Shown here one piece after another: positions 4,219-64,000 of a DNA stretch of 64,000 bases. The DNA is from Eunapius fragilis (Eukaryota; Porifera; Demospongiae; Spongillida; Spongillidae): assembly GCA_963681505.1 (NCBI GenBank), contig OY811978.1, forward strand, positions 4,186,230-4,250,229, in the 5' to 3' direction. The notes under the pieces were generated by a model. That model did not search any database. It was not told the origin of the DNA and saw only the letters and a list, made by a program, of their open reading frames with translations. Position 1 is the first letter of the stretch, and each line of letters opens with the position of its first letter. The translations under genes were made by a program, and so were the position numbers.

Positions 4219-4955
4219 AGGCAGGCGGCACTCTTTGGGTTTCTACTCCAATAGCACCTAACCATTGCCAGAGTAATTGTTTGGAGCACAATGGTGGCCA
4301 GCACTTATCATTGGTCCCTGCTGGCTATGTAGCAATTGCCCAGCTGAGGCTGCTGCCTGCCCCTGAGTGGGCAAAACAATGACGGTGAATGTGGGTACTT
4401 TACAGCTACCAGATATCAGGCCAACCTGACTACATGCTTAGTGCATGGAGCACATCCCAGGGAAAGCATTAAAGCATATACAATCTTGTAATATGAAATA
4501 ATTTATCAAACAACACTGACACAAATGAAGCAAGATCAATGCTATAATTGTGGTCAGTTGAGTCTACCTGCTAGGAGGTTGGATGCGTTTCCATTCTTCA
4601 TGACAGCAAAGTCACTGCAGATTGATCTATCATGCATGTATTGGTTGGGCCCCTATAAGATCTCCAAATCAATAACAAACTTCTTTGCATGTATTATGCA
4701 AGTGCACATATGCATAAAAATTATATCAGTGAAGAGAGCTTTATATACCAGCAAGCATGGAAACCTGTTTCTATGAAGGCAGTCTATTAGAAGTGTTGCT
4801 ATCCCTCTTTTGTGATTCTCTATTTGAAGATATACATTAGCCATTGGCCTGAATGAGCCAGCTGCATTTCACAATCTATCAATGTCTACTATGACTATGT
4901 GCTGTGCATTTCACCCACCCATAATGTTTGCATTTTATTTCATTTATTCCAACAG

Positions 4956-6305
4956 TTCACCCTCAGTTACCCACCTAAGGGTACCTACTCATGTCCTGGA
5001 AGCAACATTACATACACCTGTGTTCTTTGCTCAACACTTTATGGTGTGACCACAGTCTGGACAGGATCAGCCTTTAACTGTCCCTCCACCGGAAGCTGAG
5101 TAGCTAACAGACTAGCACTCTACATGTGGCAACCTCTCTGCTGTGACAAGAAATGTTCCATTGATGGATATTGCTACACATCTGTCCTCACCATTCCTGC
5201 TGTGGGTCTGAATGGGACCACAGTTATGTGTGTAGATGGTGTTACTGGAGCTGTTGTGAGATATGATACTGTGATTGTGAAGATGGCAGGTGGGCTGGTC
5301 GTTATGCATTTGTCAGTGTAATAATAATGAACGCTCCAACATCCATGAATCCCCACCTCCCTCTCCCAGTATCTCCTGGTCCTGTTGGGAACATGAGAGT
5401 AAGCAGTACATCTGTGAACCAGCTAACAGTGACCTGGACCCCTCCCACTACTGGTGGTGTTCCTACCAGCTACAATGTCAGTATCAATGACAGCAGTAGT
5501 CCTGTGGTCATATCTGATAATGGATCATCACTGTACACCCACACCTTCACTGGACTGATCAGTGACACACTCTACACTGTATCAGTGGTGACCATGAACT
5601 GTGCTGGGACCAGCAATGTGACATCAAACACAATGCTGACAGGCACTACATCCCCTGGTGTGTCTAATACATGGTGCCGTTGGATGAGAAATGTCAGCTA
5701 CCAACACTAACTCTTCTAGCTGTGTTGGCTCAGTGATTGCTTTTTCATTCTAAATAAAAGGAGGATGTGCTCTTGGAAAATTTTTACACAGACATATATA
5801 TTGAAATAAAAATGTTCCAGTTGGCTGTAAACTAAACATACTTGCAAGCAACCAACCTGATTAAAATTTGTTATGCACAACTGACATGCATCACTTCACT
5901 ATGCACATTGTACAGATTTGTGCCCCATCCAAACATTATCTTTTTCCACCCCTCCTTAAACTGTCTAATTAGGAAAGCTTGGGAAAATGAGTTCTTTCTT
6001 GTTCTGTGTATAGGTTGTATGGGTACCAATATCTGTGATCATCATAAAAACTAGCAATTGTATTACCATGTTTGGTTTGTCTAAACTTAGTTATTTATTA
6101 ATAAGTTTGTAAACCAGAAAAATGCATATGTACCAAACCCTATTTCTGCTTTGCCATATGTTTTGTAACAGCATGAATTATGCACATGGCCAAATGTTGT
6201 GCCGTATCATAAACTGAACTCTACATTTGGTGGCACATGTATGTAGATGTTATAAGAATTTCATGATTTTGCTGCAGTGTTCTAACTTCATCATTTCAAT
6301 TTCAG
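4956..6305 (+). pseudogene. Receptor unit A1: degraded Ig and FN3 exons
   Basis: It contains an Ig-like domain remnant (QFTLSYPPKGTYSCPGSN near 4956-5010, then WTGSAFNC). Compared with genes B and C, this exon lacks the usual acceptor and first codons. It also has an internal deletion and a stop (FNCPSTGS then stop near 5098), and resumes at about 5125-5290. A nearly intact FN3 exon follows at 5370-5641 (VSPGPVGNMRVSS to SNTMLTG). Its expected donor reads GC instead of GT. At about 5693 the sequence jumps into a fragment of the later FN3-type exon (TNTNSSSCVGSV) and then into intron sequence that also precedes the membrane exon of unit A2. The unit looks pseudogenised by internal deletions. 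It would have encoded the ectodomain of a receptor like gene C. Confidence 0.75.
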
Positions 6306-6671
6306 ATATTGCTTCCATCAACATGGGTACCGTTATTGAAATAACATTTGCAGTCACATTTGTCACATCCTTCTCTCTTGGGCTGTTGGTGGCCTCCATC
6401 ATCATGTGTGTTTGCTTCACCCCAAGAGTATCCTCTGTGGCTAGTGAAACTCCTCCTACTTCCATTTCCACACCTATCATATACGAATCGGTGGGCATTA
6501 ATCAGAAACCGGTTATTGCAATGACAACAAATGTCTCCACTGATGGATATTGCTACACATCTGTCCTCACCATTCCTGCTCTTCAGGGTCTGAATGGGAC
6601 CACAGTTATGTGTGTAGATGGTGTTACTGGAGCTGTTGTGGGAAATGATACTGTGATTGTGAAGATGGCAG
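6306..6671 (+). pseudogene. Fused exon: membrane segment and short tail joined to an Ig half-domain
   Basis: The exon opens after a good acceptor (TTTCAATTTCAG) with the membrane exon of unit A1: DIASINMGTVIEITFAVTFV, then a hydrophobic stretch, then a tail with YESVGINQKPVIA. At about 6520, without a break in frame, it runs into the second half of the Ig exon (TTNVSTDGYCYTSV to VKMAG) and ends at a normal GT donor. Start and end are both phase 1, 366 nt in all, so the exon is still symmetrical. It looks like the product of a deletion or unequal exchange between tandem receptor units. A product would place a membrane segment in mid-protein. I regard it as non-functional, but an intact frame makes expression worth testing. 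Confidence 0.7.
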
Positions 6672-6751
6672 GTGGGCTGGTTGTTATGCATTTGACAGTG
6701 CAATAATTATGAACGCTCCAACATCCATGAATTCCCACCTCCCTCTCCCAG

Positions 6752-8115
6752 TATCTCCTGGTCCTGTTGGAAACATGAGAGTAAGCACTGAGTACATCTG
6801 TGAACCAGCTAAAAGTGACCTGGACCCCTCCCGCTATTCCTACCAGCTACAATGTCAGTATCAATGAAAGCAGTAGTCCTGTGGTGATACCTGATAATGG
6901 TCCTTCACTGTACACCCACACCTTCACTGGACTGATCAGTTCACTCCATGCTGTATCAGTGGTGGCCATCAACTGTGCTGGGACCAGCAATGTGACATCA
7001 AACACAATGCTGACTGGTATTCCATCCCCTGGTGTGTCTAATGCATGGTGCCGTTGGATGAGAAACATGTCAGATATTGGATGTGTCCAATTGTCACCAT
7101 ATATGCCTTTTGTACTTACATATTAAACCATCCACAGTCTAAATGTAAACCTTCTACTATGGCTAAATAGTATAATAAAAATAATAATGCCTCCACATAT
7201 GATTATATAAATACTGGATGTTCATTCTATTATTCCAGTCATCAACAACATCACAGTGGTGAACTATGGTGTTTCCAATGCATCCATTCAATGCTCATTT
7301 CGGAACAACCAGTCTCTCTACTGCTTAGTGTGCTGCAGTACTGATCCAACAGCTCCTCCTAACTCAAGTGTGTACAACATCTCCTCTACCAGAGGCACAG
7401 AGGTGACTGTTGACCTTGATGGCCTCACCAGTGGTCAGACTTACTACTGCAAGGCAGCAGCTGCCAACACTAACTCTTCTAGCTGTGTTGGCTTAGTGAT
7501 TGGAGATGTGAAGATGTTCTTCAGTTTCATGACAGCCCTTGTACCAACCACATGGCCTTCACTTTCCACTCCAGGTAAATCTATTCAAATGTGTTCCATC
7601 AGCATATTCAGATATGTCTGAAGAATTTATCAGACCTACCACAATCATTGCTTTTTCATTCTAAATGAAAGGAGGATGTGCTCTTGGAAAAAATTTTAAC
7701 AGACATATATATTGTATTTTTATACAGCATGAATTATGCACATGGCCAAATGTTGTGTCGTATAATAAACTGAACTCTACATATGGTGGCACATGTATGT
7801 AGATGTACATAGTTATAGGAATTTCATGATTCTACTGCAGCGTTTATTTCAATTTCAGATATTGTTTCCATCAACATGGGTACTGTTATTGGAATAACAT
7901 TTGCAGTTACATTTGTCACATCCTTCTCTCTTGGACTGTTGGTGGCCACCATCATCATGCATGTTTGCTTCACCACAAGAGTATCCTCTGTGGTTACTGA
8001 AGCTCCTCCTACTTCCATTTCCACACCTATCATATACAAATTGGTGGGCATTAATCAGAAACCGGTTATTGCAATTGAGCTAGAAAGCAATGCTGCATAT
8101 GGTGTAGCAAGATAG
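6752..8115 (+). pseudogene. Receptor unit A2: FN3, FN3-like, membrane and short-tail exons
   Basis: The FN3 exon at 6752-7016 has a 4-nt insertion near its start compared with genes B and C (GTAAGCACTGAGTAC against GTAAGCAGTAC), which shifts frame; most of the domain remains readable from 6800. The next two exons are intact and phase 1: 7239-7574 (INNITVVNYGVSNAS to WPSLSTPG, a cysteine-rich FN3-like domain) and 7859-8115 (membrane segment ITFAVTFVTSFSLGLLVATI, then a 45-residue tail ending YGVAR and stop). The tail contains IIYKLV, which fits the ITIM pattern (I/V/L/S)xYxx(I/V/L). A transcript using only the last exons could still be made, but the unit as a whole is probably a pseudogene. 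Confidence 0.65.
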
Positions 8116-30282: not shown

Positions 30283-30784
30283 CTGTGTGGGAGACATAAA
30301 CACTAACCCCTAATTAATGCTCAAAAACCACTCCCTGGTGAAACATCCACCACCGGACCATGTTTAGCTGTCTACATACACACAAAGACACACCCAAAGA
30401 CCACAACACCCTACACACACAAGCAGAAGGCATTCCATCTCTGTTGTTGCTACTAAAGAAAAAACAGGGGCAGTAGTGTGAGGTGTTGCTTCTATATGAT
30501 GTGTTTTGTTGACTGTCAGGCAACACATGTTGAGCAGCAGGTTACAATAGGATAAAGGTAAGGTGTACACATGCATCTGAAAGGCAGGCAAAATAGAAGA
30601 GGGTTTAATAAGAAAGAAAAATGTTTGAAGCTACAGGTAGCTGGCAACACAAACGTAATACTGCAAAGTATGGCACATAAGCACACCTTCCTCACACTGC
30701 CCTCATTACAACAAAAAAGTGTGAAGGCTTCTGCATACCTTTATTTTTTAAATCGTGTAGAAGTAACATTGTACATGTATTTCC
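30283..30784. other. No gene recognised
   Basis: A short (CACA)-rich stretch and scattered open frames without motifs. Confidence 0.35.
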
Positions 30785-35700: not shown

Positions 35701-37236
35701 CTTGAACTGAATCTCAAGCTGGAAATCCTTTAAACAGCCCAGCTCCTGCTTGAAAAGGTCAGGAAAATCTTGACACACTCTTTTGCAGGCTTCCTGTAGT
35801 GCCACATCTGGTTTGAGATCCTTGAGTATGGGAAGAACAGCTTTGGCACCATTAGATCCCTCGGTAGAGGGAAGAACACTTGGTATGCCCAGGAGAGCCT
35901 GAAGGTTGATGCACAGTCGGACTATAGCGTCACGCCCCAGAAGATTAAGTCTTGAGACCTTGGAGACAGTGAAGGATAGGTTTGGTGATAACCTTTACAG
36001 TATTGCTGTTGCTGTCCTTCCTCTTCTGCAAGCATACTGATTGGAGATGGCCGATCTTCTGGCAGTAATTGCAAATTGATTCTTTGAATGGACAATCCCT
36101 GGCCCCGTGGTCCGTTTTGCCACAACGTGGGCATGTGCCTTTGGGGAAATCAGTCTTGTGACGTGAATGTAAGGCTGCCTTGGACCTTGAGCTCTCCCCA
36201 CCGGATGGAGGTGTTCTTGGAGACTTGTCTTGAACCTTGTTCACTGCAACCACCTGCTTACTCGACGATCCATAAACGGTTTCTTTAGCCACCTTGGCCG
36301 CATCTTCGGTTTCCACCGCCACTGCGATAGCCTTGGCGAAGGTAAGTTCCGCATCCTTTACCTTGAAAAGCGCCTTGAGAATCGCTTCATTATTCACGGA
36401 ACACATGAAACGAGTTCTCATAGCCTCATCCAGTGGATCCTTAATAGAAACGAAATCGCATGTGACGGCGTCCTGGCGAATCCTCGCGGCCAACTCGAGA
36501 ATGGACTACCGGGTCGGCGCTTCATGTCCGACCAGAATTTAAAACGCTCACGCACAATGTACCGGGTCGGGTCGAATTGCGTTCGCATGGACTCGGCGAT
36601 GTCGTCAATAGAAAGCTCGTTGATGTCCTTTGCTGGTGACTGTTGCGATGCCATGTTACTTAACAGTTTGTACGTAACCTTGGTCTGGTTTGTGAGGAAT
36701 ATTTGGGCCACTCGGTCGTCTGGGATAGCGTTGGCTGCCACGAAGGTTTGAAAACGCGCCCAGTAGTCCGTCCATAGTTCCGAGGTTGAGTCGAAAGGCG
36801 AGAAAGTAGGAAAACTGGCCTTCGGAGTGGAACGGTCCAAGCCCTTAGTGATAGCTGTGACGAAGGCTTCTGTTTGTTTGCGTTGCTCTTCCATCTGTTG
36901 CTGAAACAGCTGGAGAAACTCTTTCATGTCCGCCATGAAAGGAAGAGACCGTGGCGGCGTTCACTCGCGTCTGCAGTATGGTAGAACGTTTGCGGTTTCC
37001 CTCGCACGATCCTGCCGACTACGCCAGAAAAATCCTGTCTACATTTAGTTTCTAGCCCCGAAACTCGTAAGGATTTTTATATTAGAATGAATCGGAGTGA
37101 ACACACAGATACAGTGCAGAACACGTGCACATAACACACATATATGTGGGCTATTCGAATGTTCAAGAACAGAATCCTTATGAAGTACGAGTCACGGGAT
37201 TACATTAGCACATACAAGTGTTCAACTTTGAGCTCA
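32763..37236 (-). mobile_element. Ty3/Gypsy LTR retrotransposon fossil
   Basis: LTRs of about 190 bp lie at 32763-32952 and 37048-37236. They differ at only a handful of positions (a few percent), so the insertion is relatively young. Inside the right LTR the minus strand reads TGGCGTAGTCGGCAGGAT, a primer-binding site common in Gypsy elements. A purine tract (AAGGGAGGTG) precedes the left LTR. Parts on the minus strand: gag with two CCHC knuckles (CPRCGKTDHGARDC, CNYCQKIGHLQSVC; about 35.95-36.94 kb), reverse transcriptase and RNase H (34.50-35.81 kb; YIDDILVSG, CDASETGLGAVLF), and integrase (32.92-34.15 kb; zinc-binding H-H-C-C and the DDE stretch with VTDNSSSF). No clear protease active site was seen. 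The coding region is in at least three pieces, so it looks broken. No target duplication was found, so one flank may be rearranged. Confidence 0.92.
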
Positions 37237-37994: not shown

Positions 37995-38354
37995 GCACTC
38001 TTCATGTGACAGTTGTTGTAAGGGTCTGGGAACCCTTATGTAAATTATTATTACGTAACAGTGAACTAGGAGCTTGGCGGGACGTTGCAGCAGTTAGGAG
38101 AGAACAATCCGTGTCCGCGGACCCCTTAGGCAATTGAAGGCAAGAATCCGATTGGACAATATGTATGTATCAAGACTATATAAATGTGTAGTGAAGTATG
38201 TATAAGTCATGATGCGCCTACCCAGAGATCTATATATGATCTCTGGCCTACCTATCAAGGTTATATACCCTTACGGTCAGGGACATAGCGCAAGCCGTCG
38301 AGTCGCGCTCCGAACAGAACGAGTCTAGCGAGGGGAACCTCTTACAGTTGTGTA

Positions 38355-38909
38355 CACTGCATGAAAGTTTGGATTTACAATATACAGGGTGTTTCAAACG
38401 CTCAGGATTGACTGCTTGATTTCTTTAACATATGTTGCAGTGGTTAGGCAAATACAAATAATTCAATTATTATAAGCGGTTAAGTAACTGTATCAAATAC
38501 CTCATAAATCAAAGCCCTCTATTAACAAAGTTATTCAAGATTGTGGTTTGCGATAATTGATTTTAATAACTAATAATAAGTAATACACGATTTAAATATG
38601 CGGTGGAACAGTACTGATTTCAAGTTCCTAGGTTCAATAGTGAGCTATTCACATTTTAGATCATCATTTGCTTTAAAGTTATTAACTTTTATGTGGTAAA
38701 TATATTTTATAACCATCATAAATTATTCCAGTATAAAATGAAGTCCAAAACACTACTTGATTTGGTAATGGATTATTTAATGGTGCGTTATAAAAATAGT
38801 AAATGAATCCTTTATATTAACTATTGTGTTGATGTCACATATACCATATTTACTAACACATTTGATCAGTAGTAAATATATTGTAAATCCAAACTCTCAT
38901 GCATGCAGT
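38355..38909. mobile_element. TIR MITE of about 555 bp
   Basis: ACTGCATGAAAGTTTGGATT at the left returns as AATCCAAACTCTCATGCATG at the right, forming inverted repeats of about 30 bp ending in TTACAATATA. The AT-rich interior has no coding potential. Confidence 0.65.
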
Positions 38910-39129
38910 GGTACGTCATAGCAGTTAATCGAATTCTCAGCCTAACGTAACGTCGCGCCTCATGCATTCTCATCCAACTCGAGGAAACAAGGCTTTCAGT
39001 TGTCAATCTGATTTGGATTGGAAAGGATAATTTTAGAGCTTGGGCTATAACGATTTTAATCTAACGATGCGCATGTAACTGTCAATAGTGATTGTGTGCC
39101 CATATGATAATTGGACCGGTCTTTATTTT

Positions 39130-39426
39130 ACAAGTAAATAAAAAAACATTCTCTATGAGAAAGTTGGTGGCATATAGGATTTGAAGGCAATGGTGGTGTA
39201 AAAAGGAAGGAAACAAGGGTCTATAATAATAAGGGAAAATGGAATAGTCTCCTATATTTAGCACGCGAACAACATACTATATCCTACATATAGAAATGTG
39301 CTAAATATAGGACTATTCCATTTTCCCTTATTATTAGACCCTTGTTTCCTTCCTTTTTACACCACCATTGCCTTCAATCCTATATGCCACCACTTTTCTC
39401 ATAGAGAATGTTTTTTATTTACTTGT
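39130..39426. mobile_element. Foldback MITE, copy 3
   Basis: Palindrome with ends ACAAGTAAATAAAAAAACAT and its complement. The interior is diverged from copies 1 and 2 (GGTCTATAATAATAAGGG), so this represents a separate subfamily. Confidence 0.85.
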
Positions 39427-39518
39427 TTCATTTATTTTTATTCATACCCGATTATGAGCCGTAGCATGTTAAGTAATCCATCTTGATATGAGAGGGAGGT
39501 TGTAAACTTACGACATAC

Positions 39519-39841
39519 CTTTGAGTGACCTTAACTCTTTTCGCCGAGCGAGATGCACATTCAGGACTATGGCAATATTGCTCTCTTTTAGCAGCCCGTT
39601 CCTTTTCAGGATCTGCTCGATACCTTGCACGTGGAGATGTCCGTTCCTTCTGAGGATCTGCTCGATATCTTGCGCGTCGAGAGGTCCGTTTCTTTTCAGG
39701 CTCTGCTCGATAGTTTTCACGTTGAGAGGCCCGTTTCTTTTCAGGCTCTGCATTGTAGTTTCCGCTCGGGCTGAATCCAATACGTCGTCTCGAGTTTAGA
39801 GGTACTTTGCTCGTCGTTTGGCTTTCTTCTTTTCCTGACAT
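39519..39841 (-). CDS. First exon of an unknown protein with charged 17-residue repeats
   Basis: ATG on the minus strand opens 107 codons ending in phase 2 at a good donor (AAG|GTATGT). The peptide begins MSGKEESQTTSKVPLNSRRR, then carries about four repeats of the type (N)YRAEPEKKRTSRRAR and YRADPEKERAAKRE (17 residues, 51 bp), then RSAKRVKVTQR. It is strongly basic/acidic and probably disordered. Similar YxADPEKKRA repeats occur, as far as I recall, in many invertebrate proteins that are themselves linked to mobile elements; that link is inference. No second exon was found to the left, where only MITEs lie. Gene or decayed transposon exon, I cannot tell. Confidence 0.45.
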
Positions 39842-41995
39842 GAAGACATTTTTACAAAGAGCGTCAAACTACAACGATCGAAGCACAAGAATGATTATAG
39901 TACGCACGTGCACGTTGTTTAATTTAAATACATGTAGTGCAAAACCGGATACATGCCACAGTTAATTACCACTACGTGTAGTGCCCAGACCGTACACATT
40001 TGATTACATCATGTATACTACTAGTAGTTCGTATAAAGAGCGAAATATGACCTATCCGAGTCGTGTCAGTGCAGTAAGCATAACTATACGTGATTTGCTA
40101 ACACAACCACCGATATAAATCATGTAGCCTCGAGACGTTTTGACCACAGAAGCGAGAATGCCAACGAATTATGAAGCCATTGGTGTGATTTTCATTTCTT
40201 AAAAGTGTTCCTATCGCGAGTTATGCGTGGTCAAGAAGAACAAAAGAACAATACGTGGGACTGGGTACGAGTTTGGAAATAGTTTTGTTCTCTACAACCA
40301 CGCGGTTTTGTGACATCAAACAAACACGAAACTGCTTGTTGTTGCCTTCTTATACGATGACAACAAGGTAAGCCATCCGCTCGTCAGGAGTCTTGTTAGA
40401 AGCGGGTCGCGTTTTTGAATGACATTCATAATCGGGGTCAAAACTCTCGACAATTACCTCGAACTGATGAAGAGTTAGGTACTGTGTACTCTTAATTAAT
40501 TCTATACGTTTCCAATTCGAATTGCTACACCACCCTGCATGGTATCGAATTAGTATAGCTGCATGTGTAGCAACCATTTTATACTTCAAGAAGTCGAAAA
40601 AAATAATCATTTTTATGGCAACAATCCTATATGATAATATGGTGATTATTATAAGGTATTGAACCGGCACATGTATACGCTAAAAAATTGGTCTCCACCA
40701 ACAATAGCAATCATAGTTGAACTATGAGCACGGCAGTATTAAAATTCACAAGGTTTAAAGCCAAAACTATGTTTACACCACAATAAACACTCTGGTTGGA
40801 CAGAGTAGTGGATATAAGGAATTAAACAGCAAGAAATAAGATGTTACAATCAGGCCTAAAAATTCAATGGAAATCACTGAATTGAAACCTTTATATATAT
40901 TTTCGAATCTATATTAACTAAAGCATATTTGAAGCGTATTATACATGTATCGTTTGGGGCTATTTACAATCTTAAAAAACAGTTATTCTTGAAGAGATAT
41001 AACTGAAATTGAAGGGAGAAAATTGTAAACTATATTTGGAATTCTAAATACGCCAATTAATGGATCTGATACCGAGAACTGAAATATAGCGCTGATCTGA
41101 TCGGCACACGCATGCACTTTCGACATGCCGCGTGCATCACATCAACACCGAGGATGGCAGATACAAAAGTGATGAAGGTACCGGTTTAAAGAAGCATAGT
41201 TCAATTTCTTCATATGGTGCAGATATAAGAAGACACGGTACCCCTGGTAAGTTGCACTCTTATTGATTGAGGGATTGTTATAGTAGCATGCGTGTGAAAT
41301 TCAGCCCGTGTTGAAAACGAAGGCCAATTTCTGTAATTTTCATCTTGGCCAAAACATCATTTTTGCATCAGTGCAACTCAGTGATTTTAAATATAATATA
41401 ATTATAATTATAATATATATATATTTAAATTCTACTTCCATCCAAATTCGTTCCCCTAATTTTTTATCTAGTCTAGCTGCTATAGCGGACGGCCGGTATA
41501 GTCAGGTTTATTAAGGAGGTCCACAAACCGCGACGGTTCCAATATGGATACTTGCTTGTTCTTCTACCTGTCTGGCAAGCAGCTATACGTGCATGTATAC
41601 TGATTAAAATTCGCCTCTTATAGACAAGCGAATGAGATCTTTTTAAAAACGTTTTCATTTATCAAACTGAAATCACTAGCTAGGCACAGGAAACCACCAA
41701 CCTATCTAAAATATACATAAGTGAATACTTGGTTGTAAATAATAGTTAACGACACAATTATTAATTGGCAAATAAAGTGTATATGTATTTCCGTTTTCAT
41801 CGAAATTATGATTATGCCCATTATTTACAGTGTTGTGGAATGTGCTTTGCAGCTGGTCTGTGATTGTGTCTTGCGCTAATGTATTGTATCAAAGGCATTG
41901 TTTTTTTAAAGGGAAAAGAAAAATAGCTATTTTAAAAGAATGAATTACATTGATGTCCGCTTTGAACACATGCCTATATTCCTTCTTCTCTGTAG
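39842..41995. other. No gene recognised
   Basis: AT-rich sequence with short frames only. It could contain the promoter of the exon at 39841 on the minus strand. Confidence 0.3.
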
Positions 41996-42240
41996 GCATG
42001 GTGGAAAGCCGCTGCCGCAGGCAGGACCTATCAAGAGCTCATAGACTGTTACCATTTATGCATGATAAAAATAGCCTCTCATGCCGACAATACATTCATG
42101 GTTACGAGTTAGAGAAAAAAAAAGTCATGCATAATACATGTACAGTAACTGAGAATGAAATCAAAGATATGAATCACTGGACAAAAATTCGCAAAAATGG
42201 TGATGCGACCTCTCTTAAGTTTTGCGGGCAAAGGGGATAG
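41996..42240 (+). CDS. Possible terminal exon of an unknown gene
   Basis: A pyrimidine-rich acceptor (CCTTCTTCTCTGTAG) precedes an 80-codon open frame beginning GMVESRCRRQDLSRAHRLLP and ending KFCGQRG and stop. Composition is protein-like (YELEKKKV, TENEIKDMNHW), but no family is recognised and no upstream exon was identified. It may be chance. Confidence 0.25.
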
Positions 42241-42444
42241 AGGCTTTGCAACTGCTCTTAAAGCTTGAATTGAGTTATGTGTCTATTCTTTAGCATAGGT
42301 TAGTGTTATGAGCTGGTGATGTATACAATATTTTACATGGTTATTAAAGCTTTAAAAGGTAGTCCATTTTAAGCATGTTTTATATTATCCTTCAGTTGAA
42401 ATTTACACTGCATGCATGTACTCACTTTTCCACATGCAGTTCAG

Positions 42445-45400
42445 ATGAATACCTTAAAGCTATTTATCTTAACGTTTTCAATTATTGTGCAAGGTAAGTA
42501 ATAAGGCTTGTTGTAAAATGTACAAGGGATAAAAATTGTCTCTATGAGAAAGTTGGTGGTATATAGGAATGAAAGGCTATAGTAGTGTAAAAAGCTAGGA
42601 AACTAGGTTAACTGACTGGGAAGGACAAATGAAATTGACCTATATTAGTACGTGCATGCCATATTTTTATAACTATTTCTCAGTGCTAATATAGGTCAAT
42701 TTCGTTTGTCCTTCCCACGCAGTTAGTAAAATCGTGTTTCCTTGCTTTTTACACCACTATAAGCTTTCATTCGTATATACCACCAACTTCCTCGTAGAGA
42801 TAATTTAATCACTTATTTCTTTCTTTTGTTTTAAATTCTTCAGTAATTACATTTTAATTTCTGTACCATGAAATGATAAAAGGAATTTACTATGATCAGA
42901 ACGCCCGCCCATCGGTAGTGGTGATGGCGTCGTTGGGTGTAGCCCCAGACAGTCGCGAGGGAAGGGCAGGTGGTCATCGTTCCGATCAGACTAAATCAAA
43001 TCCAACCGTCCTAGCCTAAGTTGCCAAACTAATACTAGCGTACTATTATGGATGATAAAACTCGTTTTTAATTTTAAAAGTATTTTTATATGTCTTTTTA
43101 ATAAATAAACAATGAACATACATTCTTTACAAATGTTGAAATATAAATAATTAAAATATCTATCTATAGCTATAACTTAGATACAATAAGTCAATACACC
43201 GGAGACCTAACCAATATGGCCTTTGCGTTAAGCTGACACAGCAGAAACGTAGTACACATGCAGTGCGAGTACGTGCAGCAAGTCTGTCGACACGGTTTCC
43301 TCTGCCCAACAACCATATGTCTCGATGGCTATATAAATTCAAACCCAGCCCAAACGGTTGCATTTCACATGCATGCATAATTGGCGGCATGTTTGCGGGC
43401 TTCAGCAGCCGATGCAGCGGATCCAGCGTCACACTCACTTCATTTAAAAGTAGTGGGATTTAGCGGTGATGTGACGATGAAATCCAAAATTAATACTGCC
43501 GGCTTGCCAAACTCCCAGTTCTGCACCAAGATGTATTTTTATTTTTAACATTGTGTACCGCTGTACGATCACACTTTTAATGTGTTTGCCATGCAACTGC
43601 TTAGTATACATGGTCCTCTGGTCTGGAGGCAACCGGCGTAACGAAAGCATGTTCTTGCAGACTGTAGGGCTATTGCCGCTGGTTCTGTTTCGGGGAGGGG
43701 CTGTAGGCTGTATAGCACTGACTTCCCGTTGTACCTGATCGCGTATACGTAGTGGAATTCAATACCATCCCCCTGCGTATACATTGGTAGAAATTAGGTC
43801 AAAACAAATACAAGCGATAGTACAGCTTTGGTTCGATCGCCCAATTACTTGCCAAAACATGCAGGCCATAACTAAACTTTCGTTTATGCTGTGTAACACA
43901 TGATAGAGCCTAGTGTAACCAGGGGCGGATCCAGGATTTCAGAAAAGGGGGGGTTGCTAATTAATTTCATGAAGCGGGGGAGGGGGTCTGGGGCGGAGCC
44001 GCCTCTGGTAACGCACAGGCGTAAATGCTTAATAAAATGATACCTTAAATTTCCGTCATATATGGTCGGATATGTAGCTGTATATATACCCTGAAATCAT
44101 CACAAGGGCCTCAGGAGGAATAAGAATTTGAATCACGCTCACGACACGTGATTTATTATGTGTTACATTAGACACTACTCGCTTTAGTTATTGCCCGAAC
44201 AGTTAGGTTAGGCGTCTAACAGACCCCTCTGGATAACATGCGCATAGGCGGAGGAGGTGAACAAATCAAAATATCAAATCATGTTCACAATTAATTTTCC
44301 CTACAGTGTATGGTGGAAAATGCTTGTGAATAATACTTGGGCACCCCTTATGGATGCGGACACATCTTAAAGCGATCGGTACACTTGGCGTTCTTTATAC
44401 AAACGTACCTATCATAAGGTATGCTATCCCAATGGAAGAGGAGACGACGACGACGGTGGAGAAATTTTAGATGGAACAGTGGAAGTCAGACATTGCAGTT
44501 ATGGGGTACCACAATTGAATGTGTGAACGTTCTATTACGCCAAATTGCCACGTTAGCCTACGCCCTCTGTTTGCAAGGGTCTGATTATGCTATACCGTAA
44601 TTTCGAATTTCTAACTTCATGACCGCCACTTCTAGCTTTGCAATACATGTATATGGCTTGTTTTATATTTATTGCGCAATGTTACAAATTAAGATGACGC
44701 TATCGCGCGAAGTACGATACGTGATGCTTATGTGCGAGCACAGTGTTCGTCTAATTCGGCAGGTTGTGTGCAAATCTATACCACCTATCACACTGTTTCG
44801 CGCACAAATTGACGTGCCGATTTTTCCTCCATCTCTGTGTTCATTTCTACACGCACGTGTATATATATATATCAATTGTGTGCCGGTTGTGTACATGTAT
44901 TGTCAAGATAGTCACCTGTCAGTAATAAGAAAACAGAGGGCATTAACGTGACCTTTTTGAAAATAGAACATACAGCAGTTTTTTAAAAATAAAAAAAATA
45001 CTTTGTAATCTGCAGCACAGCGTTGACATTAGGACTGCTGCAATAAATCACGATACTTTTATACATATCGCGATATGCGATATTTTTTTGGTCATATCGC
45101 GATACAAACGTGCATGGGGTATACGGAGATAGATGGAAGAATGGACTGAGATCGATAGACGTTCTGAATGTACGAAAAGTAATTCAGCAGGACTAGTACT
45201 GATGTTCGGCCATACACGCGCTGCCGTACTGCGTATACATATACCGTAAATTATGATAAGACGGTTTATGTGTTGGTTCTTTTGTTGCCGCCAGAATAAC
45301 GCAGCCTCAACTATGAAGATTATTGCTCGACGAAATACTTAAAAATATCTCGATACAATATGGCGATATTTTACTCATATCGCGATGTATCACGGGGAAA

Positions 45401-48400
45401 GAAAGCGTCGAATCATTTAGAAATCATTGCGCGATTGAACAGAGAATCACACAAAAATCCAGTGGTTAACACTAACACTTCAATTGTGTACCCCAGAAAT
45501 GCAATGAATGTCCACATGAAGTCATTTTTTACGTGACTCGCGTCGAGCGGGACAGCCAAGAGTCGGGTCACTTAGCTCTTCGTAGCAATCGAGCGATATC
45601 GAAAAGTAGAACAAGCCTGCGTTGTTTCCGTGTCATAAGACTGTACTCGTCTCCATTGTCCGTACACTCCCGGCTCGAAACAGTGGAAAGTAACAGCTTG
45701 GAACACCGCAGCAATCTTACATGGAACCTACTAACGTACAGTACCCGATCGGTCATAGAGAAAATTCGCAGCTCGACCATAGAGAAAATTAAGCGTAAAA
45801 AATTAAGCGTAACATCGGTAACTATTGAAACTATCTAGTGTTCATAGCAACCGCTATGAAAACTAATGGTTTGCTTAGTCGCAATGTATACGCTCAGTTT
45901 TCGAGCTGCTCTATGACCGAGCGGCTACTGTAGTCGGATGAATACACTTGTGTAACTTTATTTAGCTAAGGCTAAAGAAAGGCTGGGTGTCCTTTCATTT
46001 TATACTGCTATTCATGGATGCTTAACCCCCATAATATAGGCGCCTACTACGTTGAAGGAAGGTAGGAGAATACGAAATGCCATTCCTCCAATGTAGGGTT
46101 CTAAAACTGGCAAGATGGCTAGAGGATCAAAGGCTGAGGCCATCTCAAGTGATTTTTTCATTATGGCTGGTAGTAGCTTAGTAATGTAATTAGCCTGTTA
46201 TTCATTGTGACAAACACATTGCATACAAATTAAAAGATTCACAAGTTAAGTGAATCATTGTGGGCTAACAGTCCAACATACTTACAGTTGCCAAACAGAG
46301 AAATAGTGAGAACAAGACACACAGAAGTATGTGGCCTAGAAAAGCTGCTAGTGACTGGAGTGGGATAAGGATACATGTATTTCAAGCCAAGGTATACCTG
46401 TGGAAATGAAGCCATGCACATTAGTAAATAAGAGTCTGCACATATTTAGTGATGGTCAAAGGAGTATTCAATCTGAAGAAGTTGCCTCAATTGACAAACT
46501 CAGATAACATAGTGCAATCAATGGAAGAGACAGCTAACATGTGCATGCTATGTAGATTGAGGTACAAGCAGTTACCTTCTTAACTACGCATAGACTCCCA
46601 AGCTTTTCAGGAGGTTTCATTTTGCTTGTGTTGCCATGCTAACGTGTATGAGCAGGCAACTCCCACCATGTGCCTCTCATGGTCCTACCCAAATCAGTTG
46701 GTGCTACATGGCCTGACGGCACCAACATTATTAAATGCAGACATTGTTGATATGGTCTCTAGATGATGATGTGCTAGCAGATAGGAAGTCAGCTACTCTC
46801 TGTGCTCTATCATTAATAATTCAGGGGCGTAGGAACGCCCTTAATAGGGGGGGCCCAAAGTCATATTATTCATTGAATTTCACCGTACATGGTATCACCT
46901 ATCACCATGTACGGTGAAAATCGATGAATAATATGACTTTGGGCCCCCCCTATTAAGGGCGTTCCTACGCCCCTGTAATTGATACACTAGGACCATCACT
47001 GGGCCTGCACATAAACTTGCCATAGTGGGAGCTTAAAAAATGGCATCGCCATGTTCCCATTAGGTATGAAGGTCTCTCATGTGCCGCACCTGGTCATACT
47101 TGGTGCTAAATTGGGGACTACCTTTTCTGTGCCTGTTAAGGCAACCATACACTAGGCAACAATGTTGCATGCAACTCAATGAATGCAATTATATTTTCAG
47201 TAAAACATTAGTTTACTGATATTTTACTAGAAATGTACTAAAATTCATAGTGTTGCACGCAACATGTTGCCTAGTGTATGGTCGTCATTACATTGCCTCC
47301 AAGCACACTGAGGCCATGAAGCTGTTGTCACGGCTGGTAGAAGTGGCTTGCTTGATCCTCAGGTTGCCCTGATCCTCTTACGAATGTGTGGAGGTTATTG
47401 TAAGCTGGTCCATTTGGCTAGAGCAACACCTCCTAGTCTGGCCTCTGACCCTTTGCAGCTATTTGATGCAGAAGTTAGAGAGTGGTTTACCCTGTGCACT
47501 GCAGTTCCAGTATCCAATTTGACATGGCAGCAGGCTCAGCTCAGTTTAAGCCATGGTGGTTTGGGAGTCCGCTCTGTTTCTCACCACTCTTCCGCTGCCT
47601 ACATTGCCTCTCTTTGTTCTTCTGGTTTTGCTAATAGAGGGATCACAAACACCTTGTTTGTGCAGTTGATAGTTTCAACAGTATTGTTTCCCTGTCCGAG
47701 ATAGTTACTGTGGCATCCATATTGGCATCACCCATGCAGCAGAGAGCACTGTCTTAGAAGATAGAGGATTATCAATTCTCAATATTTTATGAAGCATCAA
47801 CACCTGCAGACAAGGCACATCTTTTATCCACGTCAGCCCCACATGCTTCATCTTGGCTGTTAGTCACTCCGGCTACCAGACTGGATCTCCATCTTGACCC
47901 CAATGAGCTACAGACTGCAGTGAAGTGGGGACACTACAAGAGAAATCTCCTGCTCTTATGTCCAGATACAGCACTTGACCAGCTGGGTAATCACGCTGCC
48001 ACTTGCTAGTAAGGGGGAGATGTGGTCTCTCGTCACAATCGCCTGAGAGATCTAGTGCTGGAATTCTGCCGCCGTGCCCACCAGGGGGTGAGGGTGCAGA
48101 AAGGCAGTGGTCTTACATCTGATCACAACCGTACTCAACCAGCTGACATACTTGCATTGGATTGGGACAGAGGAAGGCATGCAGCCTTTGATGTGACCGT
48201 AACATCCCCATTGTCTGTATCCATTCTCCCTGAGGCAAGCATGTCAGTGGGGGTCAGCAGGACTTGAGGCAGAGGTGCAAAAGCACAGAGCCAATGACCC
48301 CAAGTGCACTGAGCCGGGATGGGTTTGTGTCCCATTTGCTGTAGAGACGTATGGCAAAGAAGCTCATGCCACCTTCTCCCGCCTCGCAACCTGCATCACC

Positions 48401-51400
48401 ACCACCTCTTCATGCCACAAGAGCCAAGTCTTGGGTGAAATGTATGGCAGGCTAAACTTCACCCTCATCCGAGCCATCTCAAGGACCATCCTGGGTAGAT
48501 GCCTATCCATCAAAGACAATGTAGAATTCTAACGTGTGTTAAGCTATATTGTACATGTATTCATGTTCGTATACCCTGTATGTATAATGAAAAAATAAAT
48601 AATTCTTATTCATGCAAATGTCCAATTGACCTCATGTGCTCATCCTACGCTTTGATCTGTTCTCCTTTTATCTGTATTTTCACTGTATGTGTATCCTATT
48701 ATATTATATTATTATTACATATGAAGAAAAAAAAATTCATGCATATGTGGTTTAACTATAATTAGCTCAATAGAATTGTATTTAGATAGCATTTCTTTTA
48801 TAATCATCTAACACACATCTTCCCCTCACTTCAGGTTCATGCCAACAGTTCACCCTCAGTTATCCACCTAAGGGTACCTACTCATGTCCTGGAAGCAACA
48901 TTACATACACCTGTGTTCTTTACTCAAGCTTTGCTGGTGTGATCACAATCTGGAGAGGATCAGCCTTTAACTGTAGTATTGGAAACCAACTATCACTATC
49001 CCAGAAGTCAGGTGGAGTAGTCAATCCAACTGCTAGTGGATCATGTGGCAATCTCTCTGCTGTGACAACAAATGTCTCCACTGATGGATATTGCTACACA
49101 TCTGTCCTCACCATTCCTGCTGTTCAGGGTCTGAATGGGACCACAGTTATGTGTGCAGATGGTGTTACTGGAGCTGCTGTGGGAAATGATACTGTGTTTG
49201 TGAAGATGGCAGGTGAGTTGTTGTTCAATGTTATGCATTTGTGGGTGCAATAATTATGAACACCCCAACATCCATGAATCCCCACCTCCCTCTCCCAGTA
49301 TCTCCTGGTCCTGTTGGGAACATGAGAGTAAGCAGTACATCTGTGAACCAGCTAACAGTGACCTGGACCCCTCCCACTACTGGTGGTGTTCCTACCAGCT
49401 ACAATGTCAGTATCAATGACAGCAGTAGTCCTGTGGTCTTTACTGATAATGGATCATCACTGTACACCCACACCTTCACTGGACTGATCAGTGACACACT
49501 CTGCATAGCATCAGTGGTGGCCATCAACTGTGCTGGGAGTAATGTGGTGACACAGACCAAATGGACAGGTGACCATGGAGTGCAGGGTATCAAGTTGTAC
49601 AACAAAGAGGAAAACAGTCATAAAGAGATTTATAAATATGCCAGGGGTCATTTCCATCTTGATCTTACTATTTTCTATCCTTCTTTCTAAATCTGCATTC
49701 ATACATATCTCTATTTGCATGAATCATATCAATATTCACATACCTCTCTTTGCAGTGGCAGACCCTCCAGACAAGGACAGTATCCATGTTGTATTTGTTT
49801 TGTACCCAAACATGATCGTCCATAGCCTGGATGTCACCTGGACACCTGTGGTAGGCAGACATACCATGTGTGCTAATGATGAACCATTTGGTCACCTCCA
49901 GGGAGGCAGTGTGACCATGTACACAGTGAGGGTTGTTGGTGATGGTACCTTTGTTGGCAATGGCTCTACAACTTGTACCACCTCACCTTGCATCCATTCC
50001 CTATACCTCAAGGGATATGTATCCACAACCAACTACACCATCTTCATTGCATCCATAAATGGAGATGGAGATATTGGTCCAGAGAATTTTTCTACTATAA
50101 ATGGTTAGTCTGTAATTTATTTGCTACCCTGGTTACAATAGTACAGCAACTGTTATCCATATATGAGTTGATTTCTCAAAAATGCAGAGGAAATGATGCA
50201 CAGATCCATCCATGTATTGAAGCAGTTTCACTTGTCCCATGACCTTTATAACACATGTCAATGCCTAATATGAAACTTTCAGTTTAAGCTGAAAGATTAT
50301 TGATAATCAATATGGTTGATTTCCTAGTTATCAACAATATCACAGCTGTGAACTATGGTGTTTCCAATGCATCCATTGAATGCTCATTTTGGGACAACCA
50401 GTCTCTCTACTGCTTAGTGTGCTGCAGTACTGATCCAACAGCTCCTCCTAACTCAAGTGTGTACAACATCTCCTCTACCAGAGGCACAGAGGTGACTGTT
50501 GACCTTGATGGCCTCACCAGGGGTCAGACTTACTACTGCAAGGCAGCAGCTACCAACAACAATTCCAGTCCTTACAACTGCACCTTTCCAGGGTTTGGTG
50601 GTGTTAATGCATTTGTCAGCTTCAAGACTGTATCAAGACCAACAATGCAAGCAGGTGTCTATTGCATGATACCAGGGGTTTCAGAGTGCAATTGATATTA
50701 ATTGTGTTCATAATAGCATTTTTTCATTTCCAATTTTTCCTTTTTCAAACAGTAACCACACCTAGAAGTACAAACCCTGTTTCCTCAGGTATTTATGGGT
50801 GCAGAAATGAATATATACTTTACCCATTGTAATACAAATGTTACAGCAATCATCGCCGCCATCACTACCCCCTTAGCCCTTTGTGTTGTCTTGGTCATTA
50901 TTGCCATGGCGATTCTCTTCATTTGCATCAGGACGAGGAGAAAAGGTGCAATTCTAAAGTGATTGTAACCATGGTTACCATGGTGACAAATAATTTGTGC
51001 ATCAGCAAAGCACAGCCCACACATGCATAATTATATTCTGCTCTTCTGCTTCAACCCACACACACATTTACGCACACTCACACACATATACCCCACATGC
51101 TTACAGGAGACAAGACAAACAGGTAAATCCATGCATGGTGAATGTGCATAGGGTAAATGTTAAAGCTGACTATCACTTTAGTAGCAATGTTGCATATAGT
51201 AGTAGCGCCATATGATAGTATGTACTGCATGTTTACAATTCATTTTCAGATTTCCGTCCACTTCGTTGCAAGAGCTACAGAAGCAGAGGGAGTGAGGCTT
51301 GTGGAACGCGTAGCATAGCGCATGTAGTGTAGAATTATACAAACTGTTCTGCGTATTTATCTGCATGACTGAATTTTTTATCATCACTCGTCCCTAGACG

Positions 51401-53596
51401 ATATATCCGCACCTCTGAAGTGGTCGCCTCTAATGCCGTGTACATATACAGTAATCACGATAGAATATACACCGAATGCTCATGTACGCGGGACTACGAA
51501 CATGTAAATGCAGCCAATCAGACGTCCACAACCGAGGACACTACACATGTGTATAGCACCCCCGACAATAAGGTACAGATATTATGTGAGCGCGATTTTA
51601 CGTAACGCGCAAGATAGATGATACGATTAACAAGTTGAAACAATGACGTCGACAGAGATGCGGTTTCATGCATGACATTCCGAAGTACAGGGGGTTAGTC
51701 GGGTGTGGATGGGGGTGGTGATGAAAGCTATGTGGCCCTACCATCTATGGCGCTTAATTATTCTCCTCATGTTTCAGATAAAACCACACACCCCCTCGTC
51801 CTATATACGTACACACGAAGGGCCGGACACAGGGCATGGGTATGGACGCCTGGATGACGCAGACCCATCGCAGAAGAAAGTGACTGTTATGCGCAGCCCG
51901 GACGACGTCTTAGGCCAGGTAAGCACATCTGTATGTGTACTTGCGCATAATGTACAACAAGTACTTCTGTTGCACCACAGGTAAAGTGCATATCATAATG
52001 TTCAGTTGGCATTGCATTATAGACTGATCATAAATAGTATATGGACAAGATGGAAGATTTTCACGTTGATAAATCATTTCTGCACCAAAGTGTTCAATGA
52101 GCACGCAGTTGTACCAGTGAATGTGAGGGCGAGCATATACGGTATAATAATTTAAGGTATTTGCTGAGACCAACCAACCAACCAAGCACATGGAGTCCAA
52201 CCATGTAGGGTGTGGGGAGGCCAACCATGTAGGGCGTGGGGAGGACAACCATGTAGAGTGTGGGGAGGCCAACCATGTAGGGTGAGGGGAGGCCAACCAT
52301 GTAGGATTAATAGAGGCCAACCATGAAGGGTGTACATGGAGGCTATCACATGCACACAAGAGCCAGGTACCCCTGAGACTGTGTACAAACATGTAGTTCT
52401 CAAGAAAATTTGTTTTGTACATCACCATTGCAATAACAGTAAACACTACCTGTTATGGGTACGGGTGATATTCATAATATGACGCTGTGAAAGGAATAGA
52501 GGAAAAACATGATATGACCAATAATGGTCAGGGCACTGCCATGTGATTAGCCTGACTGACAAGCTGAAGTAAGGGAGGCTGCTGAAGACTTGTATCTATA
52601 ATCAACTCCTTTCATGTTTAGAAGTACTCTGAGAGTCTGCTAATACAGTATTAGAGCATTGCAGAAACTTTACATAAGTTGTAGCCTAACATGTGAGCAT
52701 TACAATAGAACTACATGACATCTATATAGGTCAATTAATTAGAGGGAACTACATACACATGTAGTGCATTTGCACACCTCACTGAGAAGTACCATTTCAA
52801 TTAATGTGTGTAAGCATATTCCATAATGCCCTCTCCCTACTCATCATACCCCAAATCCATCAATCAGAGTATCACACCTTCATTGAAATGTTTCTTTTTA
52901 CATTAAATAAATGCAATTCAAGTTGTCAACTTTTTTATTTTGCCAATTAACAACAATCCACTGTATATGCATTTTCTGTTGGAGAGGTTGCATGCCATGT
53001 TACCACAGTTTTGTGCCTACTCCATGTTACTGCCTCCTGGAAAATTGATTTATGTCTTTCACTTCTAATCTAAGTCCAAATATTTGTAATCAATGCATGT
53101 CTTGTGAAGAACTAAATATTGCAATCACAATAGCCATCAAAGCTAGTAGCCACCAGAGTTAGTAGCCACCTGTGCATGCTGGTCCAGACTATTTGTATAT
53201 CAGCAAAGGGTGCAATCAAATAGCTACTGACGGCCAGTAATATGCACAACAGGTCGTAACATGGAGTAGGATGATCACATGATGCACGTGTTGGACACCT
53301 GCACTGGATCTGTGAACACAACTGCCATGTATTCCTCTACAAACATACTTTTCCTCACCTAACATAGCATGCCACCATGACTATCAAAGATGACAGTTAC
53401 TCTGTACCACTGAAAGCGTCAAAGTCAAATGGAAAAGGTATGTGTGTTCTACATGCTGTCACATACACACCACATGTGATCACTTGTTATAGTCGTACAA
53501 GTTCCAGTTGTGTCCCATCAAGTCCTGGCGCTGGTCCCTGAAGGCGACTATGCTCAACCTATGGATCATAAAGGAGTGCTTAAGAAGACCACATAG
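42445..53596 (+). CDS. Receptor gene C: Ig/FN3 single-pass receptor with long tyrosine-rich tail
   Basis: Exons: 42445-42493, 48835-49212, 49299-49568, 49756-50103, 50328-50654, 50753-50788, 50847-50945, 51107-51122, 51398-51572, 51778-51918, 53368-53437, 53493-53596. All phases agree; 671 codons with stop. Residues 1-17 are a signal peptide (MNTLKLFILTFSIIVQG). Then follow Ig-like (about 18-142), FN3 (143-232, LTVTWTPPTTGG), FN3 (233-348, YTVRVVGDG), cysteine-rich FN3-like (349-457), a Thr/Ser stalk, and a membrane helix (about 470-497, LALCVVLVIIAMAILFICI) with stop-transfer RTRRK. The tail (498-670) holds about a dozen tyrosines, including YSTP, YSVP, YAQP (YxxP), YSN and YGRL. YxxP is the known docking site of Crk/Nck-type SH2 domains. 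It is likely a surface adhesion or recognition receptor. Intron 1 (6.3 kb) holds MITEs and a LINE remnant. The signal exon and the microexon are the least certain parts. Confidence 0.75.
42522..42817. mobile_element. Foldback MITE, copy 4
   Basis: A diverged palindrome (CTCTATGAGAAAGTTGGTGG at the left, CCACCAACTTCCTCGTAGAG at the right) lying 30 bp inside intron 1 of receptor gene C. Confidence 0.8.
42818..43918. other. Intron 1 of gene C, unremarkable part
   Basis: Several short frames with no motif support. Confidence 0.3.
43919..44030. mobile_element. Terminal-like sequence of a hAT-type element
   Basis: CCAGGGGCGGATCCAGGATT followed by a G-rich stretch and GGGGCGGAGCCGCC resembles the CAGGGGCGGATCCAG termini common in animal hAT transposons. 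No matching inverted end was found nearby, so this is a fragment at best. Confidence 0.35.
45025..45400 (+). mobile_element. MITE-like repeat with TATCGCGATA ends
   Basis: The left part (AATAAATCACGATAC, ATATCGCGATATGCGATA) and the right part (CTCGATACAATATGGCGATA, ATATCGCGATGTATCACG) form an imperfect inverted pair. The inner stretch matches 205-335 in reverse. Confidence 0.55.
45401..46821. other. Intron 1 of gene C, no gene recognised
   Basis: Open frames of 60-100 codons occur on both strands, without motifs or splice context that would support them. Confidence 0.3.
46822..46975. mobile_element. Near-perfect palindromic MITE, 154 bp
   Basis: The left end CAGGGGCGTAGGAACGCCC and the right end GGGCGTTCCTACGCCCCTG are exact complements, and the arms pair for about 72 bp apart from one or two bases. 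The loop is only a few bases around GTATCACCTATCAC. CAGGGGCG termini suggest a hAT-derived element; no clean 8-bp duplication is seen. Confidence 0.85.
47141..47286. mobile_element. TIR MITE, 146 bp
   Basis: GCAACCATACACTAGGCAAC at the left and GTTGCCTAGTGTATGGTCGT at the right are inverted, continuing through TGTTGC; the interior is AT-rich. It lies next to the LINE remnant. Confidence 0.7.
47340..48535 (+). mobile_element. LINE remnant with restriction-like endonuclease, copy 2
   Basis: Same protein region as the minus-strand copy at 24678-26126: DPQVALILLRMCGGYCKLVH (47351), TWQQAQLSLSHGGLGVRS (47523), VVSRHNRLRDLVLEFCRR (48020), QPADILALDWDRG with AAFDVTVTS (48136-48210), and VPFAVETYGKE (48328). 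The finger region is damaged, and at least three stops or shifts interrupt it (near 47700, 48010 and 48268). The two copies are diverged, so they are independent old insertions. It lies within intron 1 of receptor gene C, immediately upstream of the Ig exon. Confidence 0.75.
51150..51215 (+). other. Relic of the short-tail terminal exon inside gene C
   Basis: In the intron after the microexon, an open stretch reads VNVKADYHFSSNVAYSSSAI and stop. AGCAATGTTGCATAT is identical to gene B, where it encodes the tail end SNVAY before the stop. In the frame of the microexon it could be read only through a 27-nt intron, too short to be credible. It looks like a remnant of the short-tail ending. Confidence 0.4.
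52196..52331 (-). repeat. 24-bp minisatellite, about 6 copies
   Basis: The unit GCCAACCATGTAGGGTGTGG GGAG is repeated with small changes, in the long intron before the last two exons of gene C. The TWLASPHP-type minus-strand frame is only a by-product of the repeat. Confidence 0.85.
52332..53367. other. Late intron of gene C
   Basis: AT-rich intron sequence between the exons ending 51918 and starting 53368; no other feature seen. Confidence 0.4.
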
Positions 53597-59500: not shown

Positions 59501-59864
59501 ACATCCCTATGGGATGTCTAGAAACCCAAAGGTGGTGCAGTTGCGTCTTGTCAGTAAGGCTGCACTGACTGCCATAACAGAAAGACCGTTTGTTCCCTGA
59601 TAGAACATTGAAACCCTCTGACCAATCTTTGGAGTTGCAGTGCAACAAGAACGGGGAAGCTAACACACATGGTATCGGGGCACACATGCTAGGGAGGATG
59701 GCACAGATTGTGTAGCAGTAAAAGGTGGGACGTGCGTGTGTGCTCAATGCCTTCTATTTTGATTTTCATGAAGGTGCTTTCAAATTACATCCTCCTGAAC
59801 TTTTTAGCCTCGAGCCATCTGCTGGTGCTAAGCCACTCACCCCTCACCCTGTGGGGGGTACATC
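59501..59864. other. Spacer, no feature recognised
   Basis: Nothing that can be supported. Confidence 0.3.
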
Positions 59865-63944: not shown

Positions 63945-64000
63945 TGTGTGGGAGGCATAAACATTAACCCCTAATTAATGCTCAAAACCACTCCCCCACA

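Follow-up and report, generated by a model that had tools for sequence, protein, structure and literature searches.

A candidate paired-receptor layout with a YxxP-bearing tail in the sponge Eunapius fragilis

Introduction

Several vertebrate receptor families contain members that share an extracellular part and differ in their tails. In CEACAM1 and its ITAM-bearing relatives, and likewise in Siglec-11 and Siglec-16, gene conversion has left ectodomain exons near-identical beside different tails (available parts of PMC2832619 and PMC5701461). Exchange between the paired CEACAM receptors was demonstrated by stretches of codons with little synonymous change, a method closely related to the one used here (PMC2832619, in the part available). 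Two neighbouring predicted receptor genes of the sponge Eunapius fragilis, here called P3 and P2, resemble these pairs in having partly near-identical ectodomains and different tails. The likeness is one of layout only, since the vertebrate pairs, as far as the accessible text of these sources goes, oppose ITIM tails to ITAM-like or adaptor-coupled ones, whereas the sponge genes set a YxxP tail against a short tail with YxxV.

The closest described counterparts of the P3 tail belong to proteins with other ectodomains. Like P3, DCBLD1 and DCBLD2 carry several cytoplasmic YxxP motifs, which recruit an adaptor and bind CRK/CRKL, and YxxP-tailed receptors recruit CRKL upon phosphorylation by Src-family or Abl kinases (excerpts of PMC6029619). 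They differ in their CUB-LCCL-FV/FVIII ectodomain and in the number of motifs, seven in DCBLD2 and eight in DCBLD1 against up to three in P3 (same excerpts of PMC6029619). YxxP-tailed transmembrane proteins of choanoflagellates, such as Salpingoeca PTSG_05573, also have several cytoplasmic copies, but their ectodomains are of other kinds, three of the five contain SH2-like domains and PTSG_05573 has ten YxxP (PMC5043372, available in part). Peptides with pYDVP from one of these proteins bind the SH2 domain of Monosiga crka1; pYxxP binding is ascribed to the ancestral Crk SH2 domain, the use of YxxP by Crk SH2 is older than the animals, and the sponge Amphimedon possesses both crka and bcar1 (same part of PMC5043372). 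The first-pass annotation of the locus had called YxxP clusters docking sites for Crk/Nck-type adaptors, and the available text of PMC5043372 backs this for Crk in early animals.

A third set of comparisons comes from recognition systems. The fester co-receptors of Botryllus and the Alr candidates of Hydractinia are clustered Ig-superfamily receptors with tyrosine motifs, as P3 would be if its N-terminal domain is an Ig domain; compared by layout only, they are unlike P3 in bearing ITIM/hemITAM motifs, and FcoR has a V-Ig/sushi/two C2-Ig architecture (PMC12065747, as available). No gene with the layout of P3 was found described in the sponge and receptor literature searched, a search over titles and the first lines of abstracts with most subscription journals outside its coverage.

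Gene structure of P3

The window is a 64,000-nucleotide stretch of contig OY811978.1 (assembly GCA_963681505.1, positions 4,186,230 to 4,250,229), and all positions below refer to it. Twelve frame-consistent exons totalling 2013 nt had been proposed at 42445-53596. The chain could be rebuilt unchanged: all of its introns are GT-AG, the exons sum to 2013 nt, the stop lies at 53594-53596 and the frame contains no internal stop. Exons 2 to 6 are in phase 1 at both ends, the usual state for shuffled extracellular domains.

Exon 4 of this model (49756-50103) needs to be split. It encloses a 51-nt GT-AG stretch (GTAGGC...CTCCAG) that was missed at first and that, being in frame and stop-free, a frame check does not reveal. 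This stretch is taken as an intron because P2 has an intron (22018-22108) at the homologous place and because the Pfam fn3 score of the second FN3 domain rises past the cut-off of 25 bits, from 15.7 with the 17 residues concerned to 26.5 without them. The corrected model would comprise 13 exons, 1962 nt and 653 amino acids (Table 1), with the YxxP tyrosines 560, 624 and 656 of the 2013-nt product becoming 543, 607 and 639. Past the stop, the first AATAAA is at 54718, and no ATTAAA occurs before 57000.

Table 1. Exons of the corrected P3 model and its paralogues in the window.
Feature	Position	Strand	Support or remark
Exon 1: ATG and signal peptide MNTLKLFILTFSIIVQ|G	42445..42493	+	Sole strong candidate; donor CAAG|gtaagt
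Exon 2: N-terminal domain rich in cysteine; Ig-like only in its pattern	48835..49212	+	No Pfam match; sub-threshold PDB profile matches
Exon 3: FN3 domain 1	49299..49568	+	Pfam fn3 35.2 bits; PDB FN3 chains
Exon 4a: FN3 domain 2, first part	49756..49850	+	Intron-corrected model
Added 51-nt intron	49851..49901	+	P2 intron at homologous place; fn3 score gain
Exon 4b: FN3 domain 2, second part	49902..50103	+	Intron-corrected model
Exon 5: FN3 domain 3	50328..50654	+	AF2 pLDDT 61.9; Foldseek FN3 matches
Exon 6: stalk VTTPRSTNPVSS	50753..50788	+	Rebuilt twelve-exon model
Exon 7: transmembrane helix and RTRRK	50847..50945	+	Hydropathy; frame not best by codon score
Exon 8: 16-nt microexon	51107..51122	+	Common to the twelve-exon model's chain and the best-scoring chain
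Exon 9: tail with YIYSN (YxN) and YSTP	51398..51572	+	Both chains; weak donor score 0.6
Exon 10: tail; ends not firmly placed	51778..51918	+	Best-scoring chain has 51691-51980 instead
Exon 11: tail with YSVP	53368..53437	+	Shares acceptor and frame with the best-scoring chain; donor not certain; weak acceptor score 0.1
Last exon: tail with YAQP and stop, uncertain	53493..53596	+	Weak acceptor score -0.1
Paralogue P2	20678..24169	+	Exons 20678-21058, 21139-21411, 21929-22017, 22109-22304, 22851-23198, 23922-24169
Paralogous units P1a/P1b, broken	4943..8110	+	Fused at 6521/6522; tails with IIYESV and IIYKLV

Exon 1 is well supported, even though 6.3 kb filled with repeat debris separates it from exon 2. 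With splice-site weights and a signal-peptide score that are approximations from general knowledge and untrained on the source organism, it ranks top among 132 ATG-to-phase-1-donor candidates in 38000-48830; a second in-frame ATG at 42412 gives the same exon and the same score as the start at 42445. Shuffled sequence did as well in none of 200 trials over 10.8 kb and in one of 200 over 6.4 kb, and the hydrophobic N-terminus is as described in the first-pass annotation, which had read it as a signal peptide. Palindromic elements, with inverted repeats of 80-93%, occupy 42533-42806, 46818-46980 and 47144-47282 inside the modelled intron 1.

Extracellular domains

Upstream of the transmembrane exon, the P3 product contains 20 N-glycosylation sequons. 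Its extracellular part had been proposed to consist of one Ig-like and three FN3-type domains, and domain searches bear out the FN3 portion. The first FN3 domain passes Pfam, and its PDB profile matches are FN3 chains such as those of Roundabout 3 and neogenin. The second clears the Pfam cut-off once the intron is removed; the homologous domain of P2 reaches only 13.8 bits. The third, encoded by exon 5, has no Pfam match above cut-off and is FN3 by predicted fold: its AF2 model derives from a three-sequence alignment, and Foldseek places engineered FN3 domains and the CD148 FN3 domain at the head of its list (best E 2.3e-4, with a TM score of 0.63 normalised to the query). In that list, E is 0.001 or better for five matches, and an anti-sigma-factor sensor domain stands at rank 9. 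Assignment of exon 5 to Pur_ac_phosph_N was rejected, as the Pfam matches fall below the curated cut-off and are taken as fold likeness to FN3.

For the N-terminal domain, an Ig-like identity is plausible. Exon 2 shows an Ig-type spacing of cysteines and tryptophan, judged by eye, and has no Pfam match; an AF2 model built from two sequences has a pLDDT of 28.9 and is not usable. A PDB profile search returned four sub-threshold matches (E 0.17-2.8), all to immunoglobulin heavy chains, which are hardly independent because they cover the same stretch of closely similar chains. An NCBIfam search with three exons gave no match. The N-terminal domain may resemble unnamed sponge proteins.

Transmembrane segment and cytoplasmic tail

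The transmembrane segment (best 19-residue hydropathy 3.44) and a tail bearing YSTP, YSVP and YAQP are present as first described. Past the transmembrane exon, a simple exon-chain program, run with the same approximate splice-site weights and with thresholds loose enough to admit the twelve-exon model's own sites, gave as its best-scoring chain 51107-51122, 51398-51572, 51691-51980, 52209-52281 and 53368-53541. This chain scores 34.8 against 25.5 for that of the twelve-exon model, and shuffles reached the two scores in 1/300 and 21/300 cases, respectively; under four different settings, the numbers of shuffles that equalled the best chain were 1, 0, 2 and 0 out of 40. Both chains contain the first two of these exons and the acceptor at 53368 in the same frame (derived by hand); YSTP and YSVP stand in frame in both, while YAQP is present only if the last exon is right. 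Support is good for exons 8 and 9, and from 51778 onward the modelled exons represent one chain among several that could be drawn.

A multi-exon tail is likely. When the residues of the tail were shuffled 20,000 times, three YxxP within 168 residues arose in 282 cases, and 0/300 shuffled-chain peptides had three; the tail thus has more of these motifs than expected by chance. The sequence supports a predicted tail of about 170 residues, rich in tyrosine, with up to three YxxP and one YxN. An ITIM/ITSM tail was rejected, as the patterns [SILV]xYxx[ILV] and TxYxx[VI] have no match in the P3 tail. Codon scores count as weak evidence because the test was trained partly on P3's own exons and on the transposon ORFs of the window: by them, the frame of the twelve-exon model is the best forward frame in exons 9, 10, 11 and 12, and these exons score above the two that belong to the other chain only (51691-51980 and 52209-52281). 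In exons 10 and 11 a reverse-strand frame beats the model frame, and for exons 1 and 7 another forward frame scores higher than the one modelled.

Within the sequence itself, base composition is what argues most against the modelled tail. CpG depletion accompanied by raised TpG and CpA is a mark of past methylation. The ectodomain has a CpG observed/expected ratio of 0.05, with TpG at 1.60 and CpA at 1.62; the ratio is 0.99 at 51.1-52.0 kb (exons 9-10) and 1.12 in the 5' part of intron 1 (to 46000). The island proper, 51123-51999 (0.99), lies amid CpG-depleted sequence, holds exons 9 and 10 and is possibly a promoter or a recent insertion.

Such an island would suit a receptor with a short tail, in which case the YxxP exons would be part of a different transcript or no exons at all. 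Use of an acceptor at 51250 gives an exon that continues the open frame of exon 7 as far as a stop and would end the protein in RRK-DFRPLRCKSYRSRGSEACGTRSIAHVV-stop. The frequency with which shuffles attain the twelve-exon model's tail chain points the same way, as does GCCACCATG at the start of exon 11, which looks like a translation start when judged by the Kozak pattern. The short-tail reading, which is not exclusive of the others, is nevertheless unlikely: shuffles rarely attain the best chain, which includes 51398-51572, shuffled chains never yielded three YxxP, and each of exons 9-12 is in the best of its three forward frames and scores above the exons found only in the other chain. The tyrosine-rich, multi-exon tail is the one considered below.

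Neighbouring paralogues

Searches of the window with the P3 exons identified clear relatives on the same strand only. The remaining matches are weak; the strongest of them pairs exon 5 with the reverse strand at 51787-51977 (E 0.003). P2 is open from exon 2 to the stop and has 511 residues as assembled, including a tail of 49 residues from RVCF on, with YEVV; an AATAAA at 24275 lies nearby. Its first exon was not identified, the signal-peptide-plus-donor search giving a single weaker candidate at 10701. The P1 units are broken: the first has an in-frame TGA at 5097, the second changes frame inside FN3-1 (tblastn frames switch at 6789/6791), and a fusion makes one tail run into the interior of the Ig-like exon that follows.

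By pattern, P2 has no ITIM or ITSM, and the ITIM-like IIYKLV and IIYESV are confined to the broken P1 units; judged by pattern only, P2 and P3 do not oppose an inhibitory motif to an activating one. Outside the window, no relative was found in viral contigs, genome contigs or phages, in scans most of which detect close relatives only.

A reverse-transcriptase (RVT_1) ORF at 18351-19679 (+), LINE-like by reading, sits upstream of the Ig-like exon of P2, between two pieces of P1/P2 upstream similarity. Shortly past the broken P1 units lies a 38-bp tandem array (8381-9304; 24 copies, 97% match). Direct repeats at 29004-30335 and 62524-63995, about 33 kb apart and 82-96% identical in pieces, bracket P3 and are a possible substrate for unequal exchange.

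Mosaic identity between P3 and its neighbours

Identity at third codon positions between P3 and P2, measured in 20-codon windows with means taken by hand, varies along the genes. It is 0.75-1.00 (mean 0.93; 19 windows, codon 0 to 180) through exon 2 and most of exon 3, 0.30-0.75 (mean 0.49; 8 windows, 220 to 290) in exon 4, which encodes FN3-2, and 1.00 in the FN3-3 block in the middle of exon 5, from where it falls to 0.55. The switch points fall inside exons. In a permutation test that assumes an even rate of change along exons, the largest P3/P2 matching fragment over four exons was reached in 0/10,000 permutations, and exon 5 alone gave 0/10,000 for both P3/P2 and P3/P1b. Values of dS for P3/P2 are 0.114 (exon 2), 0.121 (exon 3), 0.969 (exon 4) and 0.483 (exon 5). 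Intron 2 is 87.5% identical over 80 aligned bases, gaps excluded, and the low dS of exons 2 and 3 would therefore reflect shared history more than protein constraint. DNA similarity stops past 50558, and no relation was detectable between the transmembrane segments and tails of P2 and P3 (best blastp E 9.6).

The sequence shows recent sharing between P3 and its neighbours in the Ig-like domain, the greater part of FN3-1 and the FN3-3 core, and none in FN3-2, the transmembrane segment and the tail. This mosaic is read as the probable result of recent gene conversion, or of repeated unequal exchange, between receptors whose tails differ; a partial duplication of recent date would leave much the same picture.

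On a rival reading, gene conversion would be no more than a by-product of tandem duplicates. P3 may then be an ordinary adhesion receptor whose family has duplicated locally, its tail and that of P2 having no functional pairing, a reading we consider plausible but less probable than not. The broken P1 copies show that non-adaptive duplication and recombination have taken place at the locus, and the dN/dS of 0.55 for exon 2 (P3/P2; columns with gaps or stops dropped) does not point to diversifying selection. For the sponge Ephydatia, tandem duplication accompanied by unequal crossing-over is reported to be common (PMC7385117, available in part). Set against this is the placement of the tracts: the Ig-like domain, FN3-1 for the most part and the FN3-3 core lie within them, and FN3-2, the transmembrane segment and the tail outside; chance placement could still explain it. 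Diversifying selection on exon 3 was rejected: its dN/dS values of 0.98, 1.14 and 1.15 come from three pairs, two of which involve the broken P1a, and were not taken as positive selection. They may reflect relaxed constraint.

Clustered, recombining receptors with tyrosine-bearing tails also broadly resemble the Botryllus fester co-receptors and Hydractinia Alr candidates (PMC12065747, in the accessible part), and P3 might by that token belong to a polymorphic locus that decides between fusion and rejection. We regard such an allorecognition role, which takes up the self-recognition suggested in the first-pass annotation and is a special case of the other readings, as highly improbable: P3 has no ITIM pattern, and the data represent a single haplotype. 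The main text of a paper on Amphimedon grafts contains no word beginning immunoglobulin, fibronectin, tyrosine or receptor (PMC5450542).

A possible paired-receptor system

The reading we favour, at about even probability, is that P3 is a type I membrane receptor with a signal peptide, a cysteine-rich and probably Ig-like domain, three FN3-type domains, a transmembrane helix and a YxxP tail, standing in a paired-receptor layout with P2. The layout is likened to paired receptors because the heads are partly homogenised by exchange while the tails differ. In sequence, P3 and P2 combine ectodomain similarity attributable to conversion, FN3-2 excepted, with different transmembrane and cytoplasmic parts. 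This combination of partly homogenised ectodomains and a different tail is more informative than the twelve-exon finding itself.

In such a system, P3 and P2 would bind the same or a similar ligand through their shared outer parts and signal differently. Clustering by ligand or contact would lead Src/Abl-type kinases to phosphorylate the YxxP tyrosines of P3, which could then recruit Crk-type SH2 adaptors and so reach the cytoskeleton. The counterpart, P2, offers only a short tail with one YxxV.

A wider proposal is doubtful at present, namely that an early-branching animal has a paired-receptor system maintained by gene conversion, with a common Ig-like/FN3 head that binds ligand, is homogenised again and again and is joined to either a YxxP (Crk/Abl-type) or a short YxxV or ITIM-like tail, and that this system predates and is independent of the vertebrate ITIM/ITAM pairs. 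Should P2 and P3 prove to be co-expressed and to share a ligand, they would provide a small, testable case of paired receptors beyond the groups in which such pairs were found described, with output through YxxP in place of ITAM, and would connect the ancient YxxP-Crk pathway with receptors for cell contact in an early-branching animal. If the pairing is false, the locus would still be a clean example of sequence exchange confined to ectodomain parts of adjacent receptors.

Repeats and transposons elsewhere in the window

Among 19 further ORFs of the window, four match Pfam (reverse transcriptase, RT/RNase H, integrase and DUF5641) and are read as transposon proteins; the other 15 have no match. 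A Gypsy-like element on the reverse strand (32919-36960) carries reverse transcriptase, RNase H and integrase domains, and its ORF at 36421-36960 lacks a Pfam match; a gypsy pol search of viral contigs returned no relative. A 39-bp tandem array at 59837-60601 has higher-order periods of 95, 118 and 157. The minisatellite at 1215-3880 consists of about 179 copies of a 15-bp unit (CCTCCTCTACTCAGG) and produces long spurious ORFs on both strands.
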